A DNA stretch of 32,802 nt from an uncultured Planctomycetaceae bacterium (GTDB taxonomy: Bacteria; Planctomycetota; Planctomycetia; Planctomycetales; Planctomycetaceae): positions 1 through 32,802 of the forward strand of contig CALFSX010000032.1 of the NCBI GenBank assembly GCA_937916515.1. The letters run 5' to 3'. The stretch's first letter is position 1. Each line of letters begins with the position of its first letter. Under the pieces are notes generated by a model, which had not been told where the DNA came from, searched no databases, and saw only the letters and a list, made by a program, of their open reading frames with translations. A program made the position numbers and the translations under genes. Positions 3,580 to 24,151 of this stretch are shown one piece after another.

Positions 3580-5064
3580 ATGTCTTCGTCTCCAGACGGC
3601 CACAACGGCAAATTGTATATCGAAACCGTCGGCTGCCAGATGAATGTGCTGGACAGCGAACTGGTCGTTGCCGCGCTACGCAAAGATGGTTACGAACTGA
3701 CAGATGACCCCAAAGCTGCCGACACGCTGCTGTTTAATACCTGCAGTGTTCGCGAACATGCTGAACATAAAATCTATAGCTCATTGGGGCGTTTGAAGTA
3801 CGCCAAACGCACGGCTCCTCAGAAAGTGATAGGAGTTCTGGGCTGCATGGCTCAAAAGGATCAGGATCTGATTTTTGAGCGTGCTCCACATGTCGACATT
3901 GTCGTCGGAACCGGTCAGCTGGCTGAGATTCCTCGGCTAATCAAAGAAACTCGTAGCGCTGAAGCTCGCCAGCAGCAAAAAGCCGTCAGTCTGGGCCGAC
4001 GCGATGGTTCTGTTCTGGAAATTTCCAGCAGCTTCCAAAGTTACGACCCACTGCGTGACCCGGAAATGCGCCCGACCCCGTTTCAGGCCTTTGTTCGCAT
4101 CATGATTGGCTGCGACAAGTTCTGCACGTATTGCGTGGTTCCCGCTACTCGCGGCCCCGAACAAAGTCGTCCACCGTCGCACATCTTAAGCGAAGTCAAA
4201 GTGCTGGCGGATCAGGGCGTTAAAGAAATCTGCATGCTGGGGCAGACCGTTAACAGCTATAAGCATACAGAAGATGGTCGCACTCATCGGCTTTCTGATT
4301 TGATGTACGCGATCAACGAAGTGCCGGGCATCGAACGAATTCGCTTCGTGACCAGCTATCCGAAAGACATGACGGATGATCTGCTGCACGCTGTGCGAGA
4401 CCTGCCGAAGGCTGTGAAATACCTGCACGCTCCATTGCAGCACGGTTGCAACGATCAACTGAAGCTGATGAAACGCGGCTATACGGTTGAAGATTACAGA
4501 GAAATGATGCATCGTATCTGGGAGACCATTCCCGGCTGCAGCGTCAGCAGCGACTTTATCGTCGGCTTCTGTGGCGAGTCGGAAGAATCGCATCAGCTTA
4601 GCATTGCTTCCATTCGCGAATTTCGATTCAAGAACAGCTTCATTTTCAAGTACAGCGAACGAGGTGGCACCAAAGCCGCATCGCTGATGAAGGACGATAT
4701 TCCGGAAGACGTTAAGAAACGCCGCAACAACGAAATGCTGGCCGTTCAGAATGAAATCAGCGAAGAAGACAACGCGGAATTCATTGGTCGCCGAGTTTCT
4801 GTGTTGGTGGAAGGTCAAAGCAAAACCGCAGAACGCAAGGCGGCTCGAGGAGAAGACGCTTCCGCTCCCGGAGACCCTTTGGCAACTCAGTTGATGGGCC
4901 GTTCTGAGTGCGATCGCATTGTGGTATTCGACGGAAATCCCCGGTTGGCCGGTTCAACGTGCGAAGTTGAAGTTCACGATTGCACAGGAACCACCTTGAT
5001 TGGTTCCATCGTCACTAAAGAAGTCCAACACGGATCGTCCGGCATCCTGCCAATTCTGTCGTAA
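3580..5064 (+). CDS. miaB: tRNA-2-methylthio-N6-dimethylallyladenosine synthase MiaB
   Basis: MiaB adds the 2-methylthio group to i6A37 of tRNAs that read UNN codons. The N-terminal MTTase domain carries the three cysteines of the auxiliary 4Fe-4S cluster: Cys19 (VGCQMN), Cys55 (NTCSVRE) and Cys89 (LGCMAQ). The radical SAM domain has Cys178, Cys182 and Cys185 in IGCDKFCTYC, followed by VVPATRGPEQSRP. A C-terminal TRAM domain, expected to bind tRNA, lies at roughly residues 400-480. The length of 494 residues is slightly above the usual 440-475, partly because of extra sequence at about 125-165 and 418-440. The start ATG at 3580 has only a weak Shine-Dalgarno-like TAAG. The gene lies 201 bp after efp, so a link in translation fidelity is plausible, but an operon is not demonstrated. 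Confidence 0.95.
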   Translation: MSSSPDGHNGKLYIETVGCQMNVLDSELVVAALRKDGYELTDDPKAADTLLFNTCSVREHAEHKIYSSLGRLKYAKRTAPQKVIGVLGCMAQKDQDLIFERAPHVDIVVGTGQLAEIPRLIKETRSAEARQQQKAVSLGRRDGSVLEISSSFQSYDPLRDPEMRPTPFQAFVRIMIGCDKFCTYCVVPATRGPEQSRPPSHILSEVKVLADQGVKEICMLGQTVNSYKHTEDGRTHRLSDLMYAINEVPGIERIRFVTSYPKDMTDDLLHAVRDLPKAVKYLHAPLQHGCNDQLKLMKRGYTVEDYREMMHRIWETIPGCSVSSDFIVGFCGESEESHQLSIASIREFRFKNSFIFKYSERGGTKAASLMKDDIPEDVKKRRNNEMLAVQNEISEEDNAEFIGRRVSVLVEGQSKTAERKAARGEDASAPGDPLATQLMGRSECDRIVVFDGNPRLAGSTCEVEVHDCTGTTLIGSIVTKEVQHGSSGILPILS

Positions 5065-12142: not shown

Positions 12143-13555
12143 CTATTTTGCCTTCCGCTTTTTGGGCGGTTGCTTATATGTGGCTCCGTTATCCGGTGGC
12201 AGACTGTTGTGCCAGGTGACCACCAATTCTGTTAACTCTGCCACGATCTTCGGATTGTCTGCTGCGACGTCGGTTGTTTCCGCACGATCTGTGTTCAGGT
12301 TGTAAAGCTGAGCGTCAGAACCATCGTATTCGCATAACAGTTTCCACTCGCTCTTCCGCACTGCCAGGTCCGGTAGGTCGTCAATTTCGTAAAACGAATC
12401 TCGGTCTGGTGGACGCCTGAAACAGATGGGGGCTTTGCGAGAACCACCGTCGCCGAGTAAGGTGCCAACCAGTGCTTCGCCGTCGAATGTGACTCCTTCC
12501 GGAAACGGAGTGCCGGTTAACGTCAGCAATGTGGGAGCCAGATCGATGGCGGAGAAGACTGATTCTGTATCCACGTGACCGCTTTTGTGGACCAGTTTCG
12601 GGCCCCAGGCAATCAAAGGTGAACGAAGCCCGCCTTCGTACAGGTGAGTCTTATAGCCACGAAATGGGCCCGCTTCGCCCGCTCCGGGTTCTGGGCCATT
12701 GTCTGAACACACAAGCACTAACGTGTTGTCTTTCAGTGTTGGGTCGTTGCGGATTCGGTCGAAAAGTTTGCCAAACTGCTTGTCCATCGCTTCCAGCACG
12801 GACAAATACAGCCGTCTTTTGGAACCATCGCCCCACTTGGCCACGGGCGGCCAGAATGGCGAATGGACGTCGTCCGGCCACAGGTTGATGTAGAATGGCT
12901 TCCTGGCAGCTACGGACTTGTCGATAAACGGAAGCGCGGCATCCACAAAACCGGTTGTGATCTCTGAACGCTGCATCCATCGATAGCCGTCACCAAGATT
13001 GACGGCGTCTTCCCAGATGCGTCCCGGAAGCGGTTGACCAGGGCGAAGTGTTTCCGGCAGCAGTTTTGGCCCCATGCCTTCAAAGTTCGTCAACGATTCA
13101 TCAAAGCCATAATCAGTAATTGGCGGAGCATCATTCACATCGCGTTGTCCGCCCATGTGCCACTTCCCAAAATGTCCAGTGGCATAGCCGGCTGATTGCA
13201 GAGAGCGTGCCAGCATCGGCGCCTTGGGGTCCAGCCACTGAGCCATGCCGCGGTCTGTGTTGTTTTTGCGATTGTTCAGGAATGATGTGATCCGCCAGCG
13301 CTGAGGATACTGTCCGGTGGACAACGCTGTTCGTGATGGCGAACAAATGGGAGAGTTCACATAAAACTGTTCGAAACGAACACCTTCGGCGGCAAGGCGG
13401 TCGATATTCGGCGTTTGTGCGTCGTGGTTGCCAAAGCACGAAAAATCGCCCCAGCCCATGTCGTCAATAAACACCATGACAATGTTGGGACGATCGTCCG
13501 CAAGAGTCATGCTTGGTAGTATCAACGCTGCGACGGCAAACAGGGCAAGTCGCAT
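12143..13555 (-). CDS. Secreted type I sulfatase
   Basis: This is a formylglycine-dependent S1 sulfatase. A signal peptide (residues 1-19, cleavage after LA) precedes NIVMVFIDDMGWGDF, where the paired Asp residues bind calcium. The signature CSPSRTALSTG starts at Cys71, which should be converted to formylglycine by a separate maturing enzyme. GKWHMGG and VCSDNGPE supply further active-site residues. The open frame extends to TTG 13741, but ATG 13555 gives 470 residues with a clean signal peptide, and the upstream part overlaps a dispersed repeat. The short basic C-terminal tail (PPKKRKAK) is odd but is a minor feature. Substrate is unknown. It is the first gene of a minus-strand block rich in sulfatases. 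Confidence 0.9.
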   Translation of the reverse strand: MRLALFAVAALILPSMTLADDRPNIVMVFIDDMGWGDFSCFGNHDAQTPNIDRLAAEGVRFEQFYVNSPICSPSRTALSTGQYPQRWRITSFLNNRKNNTDRGMAQWLDPKAPMLARSLQSAGYATGHFGKWHMGGQRDVNDAPPITDYGFDESLTNFEGMGPKLLPETLRPGQPLPGRIWEDAVNLGDGYRWMQRSEITTGFVDAALPFIDKSVAARKPFYINLWPDDVHSPFWPPVAKWGDGSKRRLYLSVLEAMDKQFGKLFDRIRNDPTLKDNTLVLVCSDNGPEPGAGEAGPFRGYKTHLYEGGLRSPLIAWGPKLVHKSGHVDTESVFSAIDLAPTLLTLTGTPFPEGVTFDGEALVGTLLGDGGSRKAPICFRRPPDRDSFYEIDDLPDLAVRKSEWKLLCEYDGSDAQLYNLNTDRAETTDVAADNPKIVAELTELVVTWHNSLPPDNGATYKQPPKKRKAK

Positions 13556-13641
13556 GAAACAAAGATTTCTTCCGTGGTTACAGTAAACGGGAGTCGTCAC
13601 CGGACGTGACATCAAGTGGCTCAGCAATTTCATACTATTAT

Positions 13642-13770
13642 TTCCCAACAAGGGCTTCGCCCTTGACCCAGTGGCGTGGCACGCAGAAATACGTGGAACG
13701 TTCGAATCGCCGAACCGCTCCGCTGTCGCTACGACCAACATGCGCGCACCGTGCGAGCATCAGTTTCAGT
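13642..13770. repeat. Dispersed ~130-bp repeat, copy 2
   Basis: It begins TTCCCAACAAGGGCTTCGCC and runs through CAGTGGCGTGGC, GTGGAACGTTCGAAT and GCGCGCACCGTGCGAGCATC, in the same order as copy 1 at 8073-8200. The AAGGGCTTCGCCCTT core is a perfect palindromic hairpin. Confidence 0.75.
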
Positions 13771-14372: not shown

Positions 14373-17300
14373 CTATTCTGTTGCGTCGTCGAAATAGAAG
14401 TCGTACCACTTGCGTTCGCGCATTTTGTTGCCGGTTGGAAGTCCGGCGGGCTTCAGTTCGGCACACCAGCTTTTTAACGAGTCGTGCATCTTATTGGTCA
14501 GTTCGGGATGTTCCGACGCAAGATTCTGGTGTTCGTGCTGGTCGCCTTCCAGATCGAACAGATAACGCCGACCGTCGCCCACGAAAATGTGTTTCCATTT
14601 TCCTTTTCGAATCGCGGCCTGATCCCAGAAGCGAAAGAACAGCGTTCTGGTGGACGGATTCTGAATGTCATTCATCAGTGTAATCTGATCCACGCCATCA
14701 AACCGATTGGCTTCGTCCAGCATGGCTGCCGCCAGGTCGCCACCGGCAAGTTGCAGCATGCTGGGAGCAATGTCCAATGTGCTGACGGGCCAATGATAGG
14801 TCTTGCCACTGGGCAATTGACTGGGCAGACTCCAGATCATCGGTACTCGAATACCACCTTCGCTTAACATTCCTTTTTCGCCGACCCACGGATCATTCAG
14901 CGAACCATCCCAACCGCACGGGTCACCATTGATGGGCGTGTCCGGCTTTGTCATTTTCAAAGGAGCACCGTTGTCGCTGGTCATGACGATCAAGGTGTTG
15001 TCCAGCAATCCGTGTTTGGTCAGTGTCTCAACAACTTGTCCAACTCCGTCGTCGATCGCGGAAATCATCGCCAAAGCGTAACGCCGCCGAACGGGCATGT
15101 CAGCAGGGAAGCGGTCGAGGTATTTCTGAGTTGCTTCGAGAGGCGTATGCGGCCCATAGTAATTCAGTTGCAGATAAAAAGGAGTTGCGTGGTTGCGATC
15201 AATAAAGCTCACAGCGGCTTCGGTTTGCACGTCAATTCGGAAATCGTTGTTCTGAATCTGCTTCATCTGCGGCAGCGTAGTCGGTTGAACGGAATCGCTG
15301 CTGCTAAGCTCATAGTTGACTCGATAGCTTCTCAGTTCGCCCCAAAAGTATTCGTCAAAGCCCTGAGCCGCCGGAGAATACGGGCGAATCCTGTCCCACG
15401 GAATCCGCACCTGAGCTCGTGGCTTGTTGGCCATCGCGGGCAATTCGCGTGCTATCCAGTCAATGCAGGTGACGTTCGGTTCCAGATGCCATTTGCCGAC
15501 AAAGCCTGTGCGATAGCCCAGCGGTTGCAGACGTTCAGCGATGGTGACAGCGTCCACCGACAGCGGCATGTCGGGAATGGTATCAATTCCGAATCGCTGC
15601 TGATGCCGCCCCGTCATCAATCCAGCGCGCGAAGGACTGCACTGCGGCGAAGTCACGTATCCCGCCGTACATCGGACGCCTCGTTCAGCCAACGCGTCAA
15701 TGTGGGGAGTCTTCACGTCGGAATTCTGTCCCTGACAGCTTAAGTCGCTGAAGCCTTGATCGTCCGTTAGAATCACAACCACGTTTGGTTGATTTGCGGG
15801 GATGACAGCCTGAGCAGTTCGATCGCCAATGACAAAGTGTCCCAGTATTTTATCTGATTCCACTTTGCTGACTGCCCAGACGGCTCCCGGGCGAGTTTTT
15901 TGAGTCTTCGTTCGCCCAGCGTCGATGGAACCGTAAGACTTCGGCTGCCCGTTTGAGTCTATCCAGAACAGTTCCACCGCCTGGCGTTGCTTGTTGATAA
16001 AATGAACCGGAAAAGGATTTCCATCCGGCCTGGAAGTGGGCACTTTGTTGCCATCTGTCGCCGGATGCCACGTCAATTTTGCCAGAGACTTAACAGATGG
16101 TTCAATTCGTTCGGCAAATTCGCGCGGTGCGGTGCTGCGAAAATCTGCCAGCTGTGGCTGTGATTCGGAAACAGCGGCCAGGTTGGTCCATTCGTAGGGA
16201 TCCGTGCGAATGTCGTACAGTTCTTCAGTGCCATCCGCGTAATGAATGTAACGATGATTGCGCCCGCTGATTGCATAAGTGTCAGGCTTCGACAGAAAGG
16301 TGACCGATTCGTGGTTCCAGTCTTTCGCACCCGCATCGTTCAGCAACGGCAGCAGGCTTGGTCCATCGTTGTCAGGCTTGGCGGGCAGTTGACAAAGGTC
16401 CAGCAATGTCGGAAACAGACTCAGCAGGTTCACGGGCGCTTCGCAGACACTTCCGGCTGATGTGCCTTCCGGCAGTGCCGCACTGATGCCGCTGGGAACT
16501 CGCACCATCAATGGAATTCGCGTGACGGCTCGCCATGGAGTGAACTTTTGCCAGTGCTCTTTTTCGCCCAGCTGCCAGCCGTGATCAGACCATAGCACGA
16601 CAATGGTGTTGTTTGCATTAGGGCCAGATTCCAACGCGGTGAGCACTCGGCCTAACATCGCATCAGCAAAGTGAATCGATGCCAGATAGCCCTGAATTCC
16701 CCGCTTCCACTGGTCCTGCTGTTTGATGTGATCGAAGTAGCGATTACGAGCCACTTGCTGCCCCGCTTGCGGAACATCGTCCAGATCGTTGGGGTGGTAG
16801 CCTGGTGGCAGCTGGATACTTTCCAGCGGAAATGGTTCGAAGTATTTCTTCGGCACAAACCATGGTTCGTGCGGTCGATAGATGCCGCATCCCAGAAAGA
16901 ACGGCTTGTTGTGTTTGCGTCCAAGCTGTTCACCAATCCACTTGCTAACCGCCCAGTCTCCACCGAATTCTTCGTCCGTCACATCCAGCGCTGCCCAGTC
17001 CGTTTCAACGTACTGCCACGGCCCGCCGCGCTTCAGGTTGACAGGGCGATTGGCGGGATAAAAAGTTTGAGGAAACGGATTTTCAGATTCCGCTTTGGGG
17101 AAGTATTCATCCCACGACTTTGCGTCAATGAAATAGTGCAACAGTTTTCCCGATCCCGCCGCGTGATAGCCGTGATTGCGGAAGTACTGAGGAATGATGA
17201 CATCATTCGGCATGAGCTCACGCATTTGCTGGCGATTGTCGTACAGCCCGGATCTGTTGGGAGCACGCCCCGTAAAGATGGCTGATCGACACGGATTGCA

Positions 17301-17540
17301 GGCCGGTGCCGGACAGTGAGCGTTCGTAAACAAAATTCCGCTGGCCGCCAGTCGATCCAGGTTCGGCGTGATCGTTTGCGGATGCCCACTCATGCAGCCG
17401 ATCCAGTCGTTCAGGTCATCCATTGAGATGAACAAAACGTTCGGACGTTGAGTGCCGGTGATTGGATCGGTAGTTGGATCGTCTGCGAAAACATGGCAGC
17501 AGCCCAAAGCAACAGCCAGTATGGAAAGCACAATTTTCAT
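14373..17540 (-). CDS. Secreted double sulfatase with central VHL-beta-like domain
   Basis: This 1055-residue protein contains two complete S1 sulfatase domains. After a signal peptide (1-19), domain 1 (about 32-490) resembles iduronate-2-sulfatase: FISMDDLNDWIG, formylglycine motif CNPCRSAIFTG at Cys81, GKLLHYF, and WSDHGWQLGEKEHW at 317-330. Domain 2 (about 584-1045) is arylsulfatase-like: ILTDDQGFSD, CSPSRAGLMTG at Cys634, GKWHLEP, and TSDNGAP at 854-860. Between them, residues about 508-572 read like a VHL beta domain (AVELFWIDSNGQPKSYGSI, then TRPGAVWAV). Both catalytic centres look intact, so two successive desulfations by one secreted polypeptide are plausible. It is convergent with nothing and is followed on the same strand by the CSPSR sulfatase. 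The ATG start at 17540 has no clear Shine-Dalgarno sequence, but the signal peptide fixes it. Confidence 0.93.
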   Translation of the reverse strand: MKIVLSILAVALGCCHVFADDPTTDPITGTQRPNVLFISMDDLNDWIGCMSGHPQTITPNLDRLAASGILFTNAHCPAPACNPCRSAIFTGRAPNRSGLYDNRQQMRELMPNDVIIPQYFRNHGYHAAGSGKLLHYFIDAKSWDEYFPKAESENPFPQTFYPANRPVNLKRGGPWQYVETDWAALDVTDEEFGGDWAVSKWIGEQLGRKHNKPFFLGCGIYRPHEPWFVPKKYFEPFPLESIQLPPGYHPNDLDDVPQAGQQVARNRYFDHIKQQDQWKRGIQGYLASIHFADAMLGRVLTALESGPNANNTIVVLWSDHGWQLGEKEHWQKFTPWRAVTRIPLMVRVPSGISAALPEGTSAGSVCEAPVNLLSLFPTLLDLCQLPAKPDNDGPSLLPLLNDAGAKDWNHESVTFLSKPDTYAISGRNHRYIHYADGTEELYDIRTDPYEWTNLAAVSESQPQLADFRSTAPREFAERIEPSVKSLAKLTWHPATDGNKVPTSRPDGNPFPVHFINKQRQAVELFWIDSNGQPKSYGSIDAGRTKTQKTRPGAVWAVSKVESDKILGHFVIGDRTAQAVIPANQPNVVVILTDDQGFSDLSCQGQNSDVKTPHIDALAERGVRCTAGYVTSPQCSPSRAGLMTGRHQQRFGIDTIPDMPLSVDAVTIAERLQPLGYRTGFVGKWHLEPNVTCIDWIARELPAMANKPRAQVRIPWDRIRPYSPAAQGFDEYFWGELRSYRVNYELSSSDSVQPTTLPQMKQIQNNDFRIDVQTEAAVSFIDRNHATPFYLQLNYYGPHTPLEATQKYLDRFPADMPVRRRYALAMISAIDDGVGQVVETLTKHGLLDNTLIVMTSDNGAPLKMTKPDTPINGDPCGWDGSLNDPWVGEKGMLSEGGIRVPMIWSLPSQLPSGKTYHWPVSTLDIAPSMLQLAGGDLAAAMLDEANRFDGVDQITLMNDIQNPSTRTLFFRFWDQAAIRKGKWKHIFVGDGRRYLFDLEGDQHEHQNLASEHPELTNKMHDSLKSWCAELKPAGLPTGNKMRERKWYDFYFDDATE
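15816..16028 (-). other. VHL-beta-like domain between the two sulfatase domains
   Basis: Residues about 505-575 of the double sulfatase align without gaps to the human VHL beta domain as I recall it: W526, G531, Y536, G542, G552 and W555 fall on VHL W88, G93, Y98, G104, G114 and W117. VHL uses W88, Y98, S111, H115 and W117 to hold hydroxyproline. Here the first, second and last are kept, S111 is Thr549 and H115 is Ala553. Such domains occur in planctomycete secreted proteins, but their ligand is not known to me. Confidence 0.8.
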
Positions 17541-18885: not shown

Positions 18886-20280
18886 CTATTCAAACGTTGT
18901 CACAACTTTGCGTTCCGTGACTTTCCACCAGCCATCAAGTTTGGCGGCCAGACGTGCGACAACTTCTGGATTATCTTTTGCCAGGTTGTGTTCTTCCAGA
19001 GGGTCGGCAATCAGGTCGAATAACTGTGGTCGCGGATCTGTACGTGGATGCACAGACTTGTAGCGATTGACTTTGCCGTCATAGGTTAGCAACAGTTTCC
19101 ACTTGTCCTGAATAACCCAGCGGTACAGCAAAGTTTCCTGGACGTTGTCCAGATCGGCGACATCGTGAGCAAAGCTTTCGCCGAAGATTTCTGTCCGCTG
19201 CAGTTCGGTCTCGTTTGTCACCACCGGCAACAGGTTTACTCCCGGAAGCTTTTCAGAAGCCTTGATTCCTGCGGCCGCCAGCATGGTTGGGAGCAGGTCA
19301 ATGCTGCTGACAAGTTCCGGACGGTCGGCTGGTTGAATATGACCTGGCCAGGAAATCATAATTGGTGTTCGTGTTCCGCCATCGTAAGGAGATTGCTTCG
19401 ACTTCGGAGCGAAGGAGGAATTCCATCCGGCTGCCAGCTTCATATCCGGCGTTCGTTGAATCCAGCCGTTGTCTGTGACGTAAAAAATCACGGTATTGTC
19501 AGCGACGCCTTCCTTTTCCAGTTCATCCATCAACTGACCGCAGGTTTGGTCGAACCATTCACACATGGCGTAATATTTGGCCAATGCTTCCGGGCGTCCT
19601 TCTTTTGTGTACTTTGCCAGAATTTCGGCAGGGGGATTGTGGGGCGTGTGAGGCAGAAACGGAGCGTACCACATAAAGAACGGCTTCTTTTCTGCGGCCG
19701 CCGTGTGAATGAAGTCGGTGACTGCTTTCATCCCCTTGCGACCGATGTCCAGTCCGTCGTCTCCATGACGCCCGCCGCGTTCTGGGAAACCTCGTGTCAT
19801 TCCGTGAGTAAACCCGCCTCGCGCGAAGCTGCCTTCCCACCATTTTCCGCTTTGATGACTGATGTAGCCCTTCTGCGCCAGCAGTTCCGGAGCAGTATCC
19901 AATTTGTCAAGCTTCGAAATCAGCTGTTCGCATTCATCGTTATACTGTTTGGGCGACTTTGAGCTGTCCTTCCACGGGTCGTTGCCGATGATTCCGTGCT
20001 GATGCGGGTACAGTCCCGTGATCATAGTGGCCAGCGAAGGGCGGCACAAAGCCACAGGGACATAACCGCGTCGAAACACGGCACTGCGGGCAACCAGCTT
20101 GTCCAGATGGGGCGTCTTGATATCCGGATGCCCCATAAAGCTGTAGTCTGTCCACGTTTGATCGTCGCTGATCAGCATGACGATGTTTGGTGGAGCGTCT
20201 GCAGCCGTCAGAAATTGCGTGGCCCCAAACGATAGAAGCATCAGCAGTGCACAACGGAATATTGTCATATGGTGTCGCAT
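18886..20280 (-). CDS. Secreted sulfatase family protein with variant CRPSL motif
   Basis: This is a 464-residue S1-type sulfatase-fold protein. The signal peptide (about residues 1-27, ending TAA) is followed by NIVMLISDDQTWTDYSF with the calcium-binding Asp pair. The formylglycine site reads CRPSLATMITG from Cys79, so the Arg of the standard CxPxR is Leu. Cys, Pro and Ser are kept. SGKWWEG and VTDNGW supply other active-site positions. Activity therefore depends on whether the host maturing enzyme accepts CRPSL; it may be a normal variant for this sulfatase subgroup. Two ATG codons (20280 and 20268) compete as start and neither has a clear ribosome site. Its upstream neighbour on the same strand is the FG-GAP/sialidase fusion. 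Confidence 0.88.
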   Translation of the reverse strand: MRHHMTIFRCALLMLLSFGATQFLTAADAPPNIVMLISDDQTWTDYSFMGHPDIKTPHLDKLVARSAVFRRGYVPVALCRPSLATMITGLYPHQHGIIGNDPWKDSSKSPKQYNDECEQLISKLDKLDTAPELLAQKGYISHQSGKWWEGSFARGGFTHGMTRGFPERGGRHGDDGLDIGRKGMKAVTDFIHTAAAEKKPFFMWYAPFLPHTPHNPPAEILAKYTKEGRPEALAKYYAMCEWFDQTCGQLMDELEKEGVADNTVIFYVTDNGWIQRTPDMKLAAGWNSSFAPKSKQSPYDGGTRTPIMISWPGHIQPADRPELVSSIDLLPTMLAAAGIKASEKLPGVNLLPVVTNETELQRTEIFGESFAHDVADLDNVQETLLYRWVIQDKWKLLLTYDGKVNRYKSVHPRTDPRPQLFDLIADPLEEHNLAKDNPEVVARLAAKLDGWWKVTERKVVTTFE

Positions 20281-20650: not shown

Positions 20651-23600
20651 CTACTCCGCCTGCCAGCTGTCTTTGGTCAGGACGTCGCCGACTTCGATGC
20701 TTGCTGGATCGATGACGACATGTTTCACTCGCTGACGCTTCCACGTGTAGCTCATGTGCACCAATCCATCGTTGGTTTGAATGATGGCCGGATAACTGAA
20801 TTCGCCGCCTTCCTGCTGTTCCAGCGTGGCGACTTTTCGCCATGTCAAACCGTCATCAGAAATGGCAAGATTCAACAGTCCTCGACGACCCCAACCAGTT
20901 TTGCCGCTGCCAAGGTGGTTGTAAATCAGCAGATGGCGGCCGTCTTTTAGCGTGACGACTTCGATTCCGGAGTTCGGATTCGGCAGGTCTATCGGTTCCA
21001 GCTTGCTCCAGGTTTTACCGCTGTCTGCTGAAAAACTGCTGACAATGACGCTTTCTTTGGTGCGACACAGCACCTGCAAACGACCGTCTGCGTGAGTCAA
21101 AATCGTTGGCTGAATGGCGTTGAATTCTTTTCCATCGTTGATTGGCCCAATTCGCTGCCAGATGCCGCGAGGTTCGCCGTTTTCCAGCTGAGTGAGTTCG
21201 AAGTGAATTCTCCAGCCGTCGTATTCTGTGGATGAACCGCACAGCAGAGTCTTTCCGTCGGCCAGAAACAGCGGCTTACATCGCACCGGACCGTCGATAC
21301 CTTCCGGCAATCGGCGGCGATCTGTGAACGTGCGTCCTCGATCGTAGCTGACCATCATTTCTCCCCACCATTCGCGAGGATTGGGGCCAACCTTAAAGAA
21401 CAGCAATGTCGGGCCGTCTCCTGGTGGCTGATACAGCACGGGGTTCCAGCAGGGATATCGCAGCTTGTCGTGTTGTACGCCATCGGCAACCTGCCGGGGC
21501 GACGTCCAGCCAGATCCGTCATGATAGCTGGTCCAGATACCCACGTCAGTCTTGCCTTCTTTTGTACCGCCGAACCACGCCGTCACAAGTCCTCGACTGG
21601 TTTCGCAGATTGTGGAGGCGTGGCATTCTGGGAAGCTGGCTTTTGTATAGACGAAGTCTTCGCTGACGAAGCCGGGGAACTTCGGTTTCGGTGCAGGCTT
21701 TGGCTGGGCGGCCACCAGTTGGTCTGCCGGGTAGGTAATGCAGTCATCGTGAACTGCGAAATACAGGCGACCATTTTCCGCGCCCACCAGCAGGTCTGGC
21801 TTGCCGTCGTTGTTGAAATCGCAGGCGGCGGGGCTGGACGTATGGCCGGCCACGTTGCGTTTGGCCAGATTACCGATTTTCTTCAACACAATTTTTCCGT
21901 CGCGGTCTTCGCAATTGCGGTACCATGTGGCATTTTCTGAATTGGTGAGTACATCCAGACGTGAATCTCCGTCCCAATCAACGACTTCCAGTTTGACTCG
22001 CCCGGAACTACCGCACGACTTTGTGTTCAGCTGTAACGGCTGATTGTTTTCGTCCACGAAAATTCTTGCAGCAGCTTTGCCCGCTGATCGCAGAGTCAAG
22101 TAACCTTCCTGGTCCAGCATCACAAGATCAAGCTTGCCGTCGGCATCGAAGTCCGTCGCTACGGGCGTTGTTCTCCACTGAGTCAACGCGGAGGAGGCTT
22201 CAGTTTCCCACCAGTACCATTTGGGAGGAGCTTCGGTTAGCCCTGTATCCAGCGAAGTGTCAACCAGCGCGCCGTTGTCGTTACGTAGAACGCCTACTCT
22301 GGAAAGAATTGAGTTGTAGATGATGTCCGGATCTTTGTCGCCGTCCCAGTCGGCGACTGTCAATGTGGTGTAGCCCCACTTGGCTTCACACGGGCCCTGG
22401 ATTGAACCGTTTTCTCCCGCCAGAATTCGGAAGGGAGATGACGAGCCATCGGAACCGGTGCCACTCACTTCCAGCAGTTTAGGTGCGTCCCATTTGGGAA
22501 GTCCGTTGGCGGCAGTACCGAGGTTCTGAAAATACCCGATGTATCCTGCCGTATTTCCACAAAGAATGTCCTCGTCGCCGTCGTTGTCCCAGTCGTAAGC
22601 ATACGGTGTCGCCAGTGCTCCAAATTTCAGAGTGTCGGCTTCCTGTTGAAAGTAAACTGGCGTTTTAAAGACCGGCTGTCGAGCACGAAGTTTTCCCGTG
22701 TTTTCCACAAAGGCGACTCGCCCATCTTCGTCGCCCACAATCAGGTCAAGGTCGTTGTCGCCGTCCCAGTCGATGGCGGTGGGCGTGATCATTTGCAGAT
22801 CCATCACCAACGGCTGTCCCGCGTCGTTGTTCAGCTTTTGGCCAGCGGCGTATTCCGGGTTATTGCGGCTGCCCACGTTTTCGAAGTACGTGAAGCCGTC
22901 CATGAATTCACCGCACAACAGGTCAAGGTCGCCGTCGCCGTCGAAGTCGGCAAAGTTGGGAGACGGCCAGCCGTAAACATCGATATCTCCACCGGCGGCC
23001 TGCAGCTTTGTGGGACTTGCAGAATACTTTGGCTGGTTGTCGGAACCGTCGTTCACAATCAGATACACGTTGCCGTGCAGTCGACCGTTTCGCCAGCGGC
23101 CATGGTTATCGTAGGCGTGGTCCCAGCCGTATTCTGTCCAGTCGCCTGTGCCTGAAATGATGTCCTGATCGCCATCACCATCGTAGTCGACATAGCGCCA
23201 CATGTCGGCTCGCACACGATTTTCGTGGACGTTATCTTTGGGGTAGATGCGAGTTCCGTGGTCGAAGTCAAACTTGCCACTTTGGGGATCTCGTTTGTGT
23301 TCGAAGCAGGTTCGTAAAATGCGGGGTTCGCCATTTACATAGCTGACCTGCATATTGGATGAAGTCTTTCCGATCCGGATTCCCGCTTTGAACACCGGCA
23401 GTTTCACGCTGGTATCCTGAGTCGGGTTTTCGAAAAAGTAGACTCCGTTGGAAGGTTTGTCGGGGCACGAAACCAGCAGGTCCATGTCTCCGTCGCCATC
23501 GTAATCCATCGGTAATGGCCACGCCCATAGCCCGACTCCCAAATCAACCTTCAATCCGGGATTGTTGTACTGCAGCGGCAGCAGCTTCCAATCTGTTTCC

Positions 23601-23674
23601 TGAGCCGACGTATAACCGGCTGTTGCGATCAGCATCAGCATTGAAAAGAAAATCACACGACAGGTTCTGGGCAT
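20651..23674 (-). CDS. Secreted FG-GAP/VCBS repeat protein fused to a sialidase-like domain
   Basis: The signal peptide (residues 1-24, ending TSA) follows ATG 23674, which has GGAAG 7 nt upstream. The longer open frame to 23764 would bury the signal, so I use the inner start (1007 residues). The N-terminal two thirds carry about nine calcium-binding DxDxDGDxD-like loops (for example DYDGDGDMDLLVS, DFDGDGDLDLLCG, DWDNDGDEDILCG), which are FG-GAP/VCBS repeats forming a beta-propeller. A Pro/Lys-rich linker (about 655-668) leads to a sialidase-like six-blade domain (about 674-1007) with Asp boxes SYDRGRTF (776), SADSGKTW (882) and SDDGLTW (939). It probably binds or cleaves an extracellular glycan. 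True sialic acid specificity is unproven, since many BNR proteins act on other sugars. It lies beside the sulfatases. Confidence 0.87.
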   Translation of the reverse strand: MPRTCRVIFFSMLMLIATAGYTSAQETDWKLLPLQYNNPGLKVDLGVGLWAWPLPMDYDGDGDMDLLVSCPDKPSNGVYFFENPTQDTSVKLPVFKAGIRIGKTSSNMQVSYVNGEPRILRTCFEHKRDPQSGKFDFDHGTRIYPKDNVHENRVRADMWRYVDYDGDGDQDIISGTGDWTEYGWDHAYDNHGRWRNGRLHGNVYLIVNDGSDNQPKYSASPTKLQAAGGDIDVYGWPSPNFADFDGDGDLDLLCGEFMDGFTYFENVGSRNNPEYAAGQKLNNDAGQPLVMDLQMITPTAIDWDGDNDLDLIVGDEDGRVAFVENTGKLRARQPVFKTPVYFQQEADTLKFGALATPYAYDWDNDGDEDILCGNTAGYIGYFQNLGTAANGLPKWDAPKLLEVSGTGSDGSSSPFRILAGENGSIQGPCEAKWGYTTLTVADWDGDKDPDIIYNSILSRVGVLRNDNGALVDTSLDTGLTEAPPKWYWWETEASSALTQWRTTPVATDFDADGKLDLVMLDQEGYLTLRSAGKAAARIFVDENNQPLQLNTKSCGSSGRVKLEVVDWDGDSRLDVLTNSENATWYRNCEDRDGKIVLKKIGNLAKRNVAGHTSSPAACDFNNDGKPDLLVGAENGRLYFAVHDDCITYPADQLVAAQPKPAPKPKFPGFVSEDFVYTKASFPECHASTICETSRGLVTAWFGGTKEGKTDVGIWTSYHDGSGWTSPRQVADGVQHDKLRYPCWNPVLYQPPGDGPTLLFFKVGPNPREWWGEMMVSYDRGRTFTDRRRLPEGIDGPVRCKPLFLADGKTLLCGSSTEYDGWRIHFELTQLENGEPRGIWQRIGPINDGKEFNAIQPTILTHADGRLQVLCRTKESVIVSSFSADSGKTWSKLEPIDLPNPNSGIEVVTLKDGRHLLIYNHLGSGKTGWGRRGLLNLAISDDGLTWRKVATLEQQEGGEFSYPAIIQTNDGLVHMSYTWKRQRVKHVVIDPASIEVGDVLTKDSWQAE

Positions 23675-24151
23675 GAGCAACTTCCAGGATTGAATTCGGG
23701 AGGGATATGTTGGGGGAAGTATCGAGGTCGATTTTTGCAACCGGATCATTGTTTCAGAGTTCAAGCATCGGTGGCATGTGAGCTGCGTTCGAATAGATCA
23801 TTGGCAAAATGGGAACGCGACGGGCGGCCGGGGTTGGAGCCAGACGCCAGCGCCCCCGGGGTTTCCTTTGCAAGCTCAGTCCAACCGCAGATGGTATGAA
23901 AGGCCAACCGCGTAAAAACTACGTTTTCATTTTGGTGCGGAGCTATTTTACTGCAAGCTTTCGGACGTTTCTCGTACTGGTGAGCAAATGACGTTGTTTA
24001 GCGGAGTTAGCTTAACGGCAGGAACAAAGCGAATCCACCATGTCGCGTTTTTGGCGGCTGCGTGTATGGCTGTTGCAGTTTGCTTTGCGAATGATGTTGC
24101 AGCAACGTTCAGTCAGGTGGATGCGTCCTGTCGAAGAGTTCCGACGCTGGA
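23675..24151. other. 477-bp intergenic region, no supported gene
   Basis: The region separates two minus-strand genes. A plus-strand frame from 23988 contains a hydrophobic stretch resembling a signal peptide, but it runs antisense into the oxidoreductase gene and ends without a domain. The segment 23815-23870 is GC-rich. The promoter of the FG-GAP/sialidase gene is expected near 23675-23800. Confidence 0.5.

Follow-up and report, generated by a model that had tools for sequence, protein, structure and literature searches.

A planctomycete protein that joins two sulfatases around a VHL-beta domain: a conserved gene fusion with a probably repurposed binding module

The window analysed here, a stretch of 32,802 nucleotides from an uncultured Planctomycetaceae bacterium (contig CALFSX010000032.1), encodes a protein of 1055 amino acids (aa) in which a homolog of the VHL-beta domain lies between two sulfatases. 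The open reading frame (ORF) is on the minus strand and runs from an ATG at 17540 to a stop at 14373 without an internal stop; the calculated mass of the unprocessed product is about 118 kDa. We consider it rather probable that this protein is a bifunctional sulfatase, likely exported, that originated by in-frame fusion of two genes, and that its VHL-beta domain is a repurposed accessory binding module. The first of the two genes would have encoded a planctomycete or verrucomicrobial S1 sulfatase already equipped with a C-terminal VHL-beta domain, and the second one, a carrageenan/arylsulfatase-type S1 sulfatase whose signal peptide would have been lost in the join.

With an alignment of the sulfatase-VHL part as query, we scanned a collection in which each of 84,980 species is represented by a single genome, and retained the best 80 of 564 confirmed stretches. 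The same three-part protein is encoded in at least two other genomes, those of Pirellulaceae bacterium SJ293 (locus L182; 77% identity to the window protein over 1065 aa, with 80% and 78% for the two halves) and Planctomycetes bacterium CA13 (L198; 72% identity over 1090 aa, with 74% and 75% for the halves), the latter on an 8.58-Mb contig. Just a few residues separate the end of the sulfatase-VHL part from the start of the second sulfatase, and the junction (VIPANQPN in the window, VIPATQPN in L182, VIPATKPN in L198) contains neither a stop nor a second signal peptide. The nonsynonymous divergence (dN) is 0.13-0.17 in both sulfatases; because synonymous sites are saturated, no ratio of nonsynonymous to synonymous change (dN/dS) is claimed. 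In a tree of 101 sulfatase domains (built by a quick method, with 37 of the 98 inner branches open and a long-branch warning), the three fused proteins form one clade (Shimodaira-Hasegawa-like approximate likelihood ratio test, SH-aLRT, 90), whose neighbour is the sulfatase-VHL protein that Rhodopirellula sallentina SM41 has in stand-alone form. No recognisably common neighbour gene was found around the fused gene in the stretches of the window, L182 and L198 that were compared, so that the fused gene itself is the conserved unit, and a common operon as the cause of its conservation is unsupported.

Of the 22 aligned relatives with a stand-alone sulfatase-VHL protein, 21 show 60-70% identity to the window protein, and the remaining one (L091) shows 34%. 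Seven further genomes from the genus of the window were searched: five have a complete stand-alone sulfatase-VHL gene (L036, L038, L040, L042 and L044), in another one the copy has lost its 5' end at a contig end (L046), and no such gene was found in the seventh (G014). The features of the fused gene are as follows.

14373..17540, minus strand: whole gene, 1055 aa, with export signal, sulfatase 1, VHL-beta domain and sulfatase 2 (ORF, Pfam, same architecture in L182 and L198)
17484..17540, minus strand: likely signal peptide, residues ~1-19 (N-terminus judged by eye; ortholog N-termini likewise hydrophobic)
16101..17453, minus strand: sulfatase 1, iduronate-2-sulfatase/choline-sulfatase type, residues ~30-480 (Pfam, similarity to PDB 6hhm and to iduronate-2-sulfatase, IDS, 5fql, residues)
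17298..17300, minus strand: Cys81, predicted formylglycine site in CNPCR (residue check)
15813..16037, minus strand: VHL-beta domain, residues 502-576 by local profile, with the Pfam stretch at 511-564 (Pfam and profile)
15963..15965, minus strand: W526, equivalent of VHL W88 (alignment)
15933..15935, minus strand: Y536, equivalent of VHL Y98 (alignment)
15876..15896, minus strand: loop T549-R550-P551-G552-A553-V554-W555, with S111 changed to Thr, Y112 to Arg and H115 to Ala, and W117 kept
15786..15803, minus strand: fusion junction, residues 580-585, IPANQP (alignment of window, L182 and L198)
14421..15788, minus strand: sulfatase 2, arylsulfatase/carrageenan-sulfatase type, residues ~585-1040 (Pfam, PDB 6prm, residues)
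15639..15641, minus strand: Cys634, predicted formylglycine site in CSPSR (residue check)

The N-terminus, as judged by eye, suggests that the protein is probably exported. PF00884 is matched twice (E 3.8e-92 for the whole protein), with both halves above the Pfam cut-off, and the nearest solved structures of the two halves are distinct, which bears out the claim of an earlier reading of this DNA, made from the sequence alone (hereafter, the sequence-only reading), that two sulfatases of different types are combined here. Sulfatase 1 is closest to 6hhm (E 3.6e-49), which we take to be an ulvan sulfatase of SulfAtlas family S1_7, and to iduronate-2-sulfatase 5fql (E 5.2e-41), and sulfatase 2 to kappa- and iota-carrageenan sulfatases (6prm, E 8.1e-60, and also 6b0j). 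The residues that play the usual S1 active-site roles are present in sulfatase 1 (D41, D42, C81, R85, K132, H135, H224, D319, H320 and K327) as well as in sulfatase 2 (D593, D594, C634, R638, K683, H685, H798, D856 and N857). Both formylglycine cysteines are intact, as had been noted before: C634 lies in the motif C-S-P-S-R, and C81 in C-N-P-C-R, where Cys replaces Ser at the fourth position and the CxPxR core is preserved. CNPCR occurs in 9 of the 111 alignment rows of N-type sulfatases (these rows include repeats of one gene, and 12 yielded no motif by the pattern used). The two halves of the window protein have the catalytic formylglycine Cys and the metal-binding residues in common with the S1 sulfatases 6hhm and 5fql, and 6prm and 6b0j, respectively, but are joined in one chain, and the similarity is too low for substrates to be transferred. 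The same genome contains 13 matches to PF03781, the FGE-sulfatase family, at E <= 1e-10, which make formylglycine activation of the halves possible; PF03781 is a broad family that also has matches in 4 of 14 control genomes.

The VHL-beta homolog between the sulfatases, and its gap-free alignment, likewise stood up to the analysis. Residues 511-564 align to positions 11-64 of the PF01847 profile, equal in length on both sides, with E 7.2e-4 and 20.0 bits versus a cut-off of 21; in a whole-genome search the same place scored 24.4 bits (cut-off 21). The CA13 ortholog scored 23.9 bits, whereas the SJ293 ortholog gave no Pfam match at E <= 0.001 but was found by the local profile. A profile built from 41 bacterial domains retrieved human VHL from PDB with E 1.2e-8, compared to 0.0024 for the best non-VHL sequence, in an alignment that is near gap-free over 64-65 residues. 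The window domain searched alone gave a non-significant match to VHL (E 0.59), behind Caprin (0.24). At the profile level, we regard the homology as firm.

No VHL alpha domain was present among the eight Pfam families listed up to E 1; the beta domain is followed by a sulfatase. Compared with human VHL, the window domain has the aromatic W88, Y98 and W117, but His115 and Tyr112 are replaced, and it is located in a probably exported enzyme rather than in a ubiquitin ligase. The sulfatase-VHL protein is common across the sampled Planctomycetota and Verrucomicrobiota. Because it also stands alone in these phyla, with VHL at the C-terminus, we assign the domain to sulfatase 1. The fallback of the sequence-only reading, a rigid spacer between the sulfatases, is rejected in view of these single-sulfatase relatives, in which there is nothing beyond the VHL domain to space.

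In the available part of the source (PMC9528729), the hydroxyproline site of VHL comprises W88, Y98, H110, S111, H115 and W117, with S111 and H115 binding the hydroxyl. The window domain has three pocket residues that are identical (W526, Y536 and W555, the three of five ligand residues reported previously), one that is replaced conservatively (S111 by Thr549) and one that is lost (H115, replaced by Ala553). We aligned 158 distinct bacterial VHL domains to one model, with host classes assigned by BLAST against two reference proteins; the rows are related by descent, so that the counts are not independent. N-type sulfatases account for 57 of these domains, of which 30 come from the sulfatase-based scan and the rest from loci of genomes identified through the Pfam model or sulfatase 2. 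W117 is preserved in all 57, S/T111 in 53, W88 in 51, Y98 in 43 and H115 in a single one. The other 56 have no H115 equivalent, with Ala at that place in 47, and Arg replaces Tyr112 in 54 of the 57. At the sequence level, the changed pocket is conserved. Among the 29 VHL domains whose proteins are of another kind or truncated, 11 retain all five residues, and in 15 only H115 is missing.

In the scenario that we favour, conversion of the Cys of each half to formylglycine would activate that half, and the two halves would remove sulfate from different positions of a single substrate, either a sulfated polysaccharide or the glycan of a glycoprotein. The VHL-beta domain would most likely serve sulfatase 1 as an accessory binding module with a rebuilt pocket, in which the aromatic W/Y/W wall and the Thr are mostly kept, the hydroxyl-binding His is lost and an Arg is gained. 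Because Ala replaces the hydroxyproline-binding His, and Arg replaces Tyr112, a ligand other than hydroxyproline is expected, which would most simply be an anionic sugar of the substrate. Two specificities on one chain could allow sulfate removal in consecutive steps. A comparable arrangement is P36 of Formosa agariphila (PMC8511951), a multimodular sulfatase with two enzyme domains that act in consecutive steps on one polysaccharide; its partner domain, however, is a glycoside hydrolase of family GH78 and not a second sulfatase, and the available part of that source does not mention a VHL domain.

Within the family of the window, 75 of 170 genomes have a PF01847 match at E <= 0.01, as do 56 of 392 genomes of its phylum at E <= 0.001, but none of the 14 control genomes does at those thresholds (4 of 14 had matches at E <= 1, none above the cut-off); the members from Verrucomicrobiota and Kiritimatiellota come from the sulfatase-based scan (best 80 of 564), which is no survey of VHL. 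In a set of nine further proteins that we examined, VHL-beta is combined with S9 peptidases, a SASA-type esterase or a kinase with MORN repeats, or stands, below the Pfam cut-off, at the end of F5/8C proteins; one protein had a weak, sub-cut-off LRR match. The VHL domain is mobile, and this agrees more readily with a binding module than with a structural part.

A structural role is nevertheless the first alternative to be weighed. VHL-beta might have a structural or dimerising function, packing on sulfatase 1 and stabilising it, and the conserved residues would then belong to the core or to an interface rather than to a binding site. The fixed position of the domain at the C-terminus of sulfatase 1 agrees with this, as do highly conserved columns outside the five pocket residues (S65, P67, G69, N78, G114, G129, F131, D135 and R136 in VHL numbering). 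However, in the 71-row clade of the sulfatase 1 type, 55 rows have VHL and 16 do not (2 of these 16 lose their end at a contig end), which indicates that the domain is dispensable for stability, and its occurrence in peptidase, esterase, kinase and F5/8C proteins is what is expected of a mobile binding module. We consider the structural role unlikely, although it retains appreciable weight.

Several points weigh against an accessory binding module in a bifunctional enzyme. The sulfatase tree shows at least 10 switches between presence and absence of VHL (8 without three rows truncated by a contig end), and the domain is accordingly not needed for sulfatase activity. Within the N-type domains, Y98 is lost in 14 of 57 and W88 in 6, and the conserved Thr, Arg and Trp may pack against the sulfatase rather than bind a ligand. 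The altered pocket is not a rule for all sulfatase-linked VHL domains, since five of the seven domains on other sulfatases retain H115, without Y98 and W117 (the remaining two lack H115). Finally, the proposed substrates are guesses based on solved structures that are distantly related.

The VHL domains of DPPIV-like (S9) peptidases present a different picture. In all 65 of these domains (64 traced to the Pfam model and one to the sulfatase-based scan), W88, Y98, S/T111, H115 and W117 are kept, and H110 is kept in 57; the mean pairwise identity is 36%, and the invariant columns are N78, W88, Y98, H115 and W117. The genome of the window itself encodes an S9 peptidase with an N-terminal VHL-beta domain and a complete pocket (contig C308, L034, 197-2932), so that one genome offers a natural comparison of the complete pocket of peptidases with the altered pocket of sulfatases. 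As a check for Pfam bias, a search with the peptidase part alone matched 85 of 170 genomes. Twenty loci of peptidases outside the VHL list were read, with eight matches left out (G009, G048, G115, G140, G147, G157, G168 and G169): one has a VHL domain that Pfam missed (L295; W88, Y98, T111, H115 and W117 kept), and in the other 19 no VHL domain was found by the local profile. The S9 peptidases with VHL are predicted to be hydroxyproline-reading peptidases, and for these domains the hydroxyproline idea is a strong lead. A 1574-aa fusion of a DPPIV-like peptidase with VHL and a C-terminal DUF885 was also observed (L175, 4635-9356, genome G285).

For the window domain, the sequence-only reading had suggested docking on hydroxyproline-bearing glycoproteins, which would bring both sulfatases to algal wall proteins or collagen. 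The preserved W88, Y98 and W117 equivalents, the conservative change of S111 to Thr and the related S9 peptidase domains with all five pocket residues speak in favour of it. However, of the two side chains that contact the hydroxyl according to the available portion of PMC9528729, His115 is Ala here and is absent in nearly all N-type domains, most of which also have Arg for Tyr112. The suggestion is not supported, and we regard such docking as improbable. A broader variant posits that VHL-beta domains are extracellular readers of hydroxyproline and its glycosylated forms in the Planctomycetes-Verrucomicrobia-Chlamydiae (PVC) bacteria. The peptidases would read free peptidyl-hydroxyproline with the complete pocket, and the sulfatases, through a cavity left at the hydroxyl by the loss of His115 and through the Arg in place of Tyr112, would read hydroxyproline with a sulfated or acidic O-glycan, anchoring one or more sulfatases on the glycoprotein concerned. 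We mention this as a speculation that is quite improbable.

In addition to the window protein and its two orthologs, other sulfatases have joined the sulfatase-VHL core separately and repeatedly. In Mariniblastus bin94s (L185), the order is sulfatase-VHL-sulfatase, but another sulfatase takes the second place; it shares 57% identity with a sulfatase that G160 encodes in a separate ORF. Genome G050 encodes a sulfatase-sulfatase-VHL protein of 1072 aa, and G052, a sulfatase-sulfatase-sulfatase-VHL protein in one ORF of 1506 aa (L067, 1189-5706); the 89% identity of the first sulfatases makes it probable that both go back to the same fusion event. The sulfatase 2 type also takes part in other fusions, with another sulfatase in G080 (1087 aa) and with an esterase domain in G118, G126 and G128. 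An N-type sulfatase and VHL are combined in 61 ORFs, a tally that includes the window's own and counts a few genes twice; for 22 of them, a further same-strand sulfatase ORF lies no more than 1 kb away. In G051, a single TAG separates two sulfatases of the same frame, although the upstream gene differs from the one fused in G050 and G052. Separately, an open-ended ORF of 1716 aa in a Rubripirellula metagenome-assembled genome (L257, 5585-10732) contains three sulfatase matches and no VHL match. Adjacent sulfatase genes elsewhere can indeed lie in one frame with a single stop (L066, TAG at 4257-4259), which makes an artefact conceivable. A missed stop codon behind the window protein, a concern raised at the outset, or an assembly error is nevertheless very unlikely, because the same three-part protein exists in two other genomes, one of them on the 8.58-Mb contig, with a stop-free junction in three assemblies and conservation at the protein level, and because the core also occurs in further fusions in G050, G052 and Mariniblastus bin94s.

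Fused planctomycete sulfatases were already known. In planctomycetes from Porphyra, one gene with two unrelated sulfatase domains has been explained by fusion of adjacent genes (PMC4807772). As in the window, an arylsulfatase-A-like and an iduronate-2-sulfatase/choline-sulfatase-like domain are in one reading frame, but the domain order is opposite, and the accessible part of that paper does not mention a VHL domain. Among the matches listed from the open PubMed Central literature, we found no paper on VHL or PF01847 in planctomycetes, in prokaryotes or as bacterial homologs, nor a VHL-type accessory module in bacterial degradative enzymes; one listed paper concerned Toxoplasma kinases. The present results tie a domain of eukaryotic oxygen sensing to bacterial sulfatases and peptidases, and add a clear example in which sulfatase genes were fused several times with the same core protein.

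The fused gene is flanked by two single sulfatase genes.

12143..13741, minus strand: adjoining single sulfatase, 532 aa, 631 bases downstream (ORF, Pfam)
18886..20280, minus strand: adjoining single sulfatase, 464 aa, 1345 bases upstream (ORF, Pfam)

Beside these sulfatases, at 20651-23764 on the minus strand, a 1037-aa protein contains FG-GAP repeats and a BNR (sialidase-like) domain. Elsewhere, two more proteins with VHL-beta were noted: one of 981 aa contains two such domains and gave no further Pfam match at E <= 0.01 (L106, 4012-6954, genome G149), and in the other, the kinase mentioned above, the protein kinase domain precedes the MORN repeats and VHL-beta (L171, 4433-6154, genome G271).

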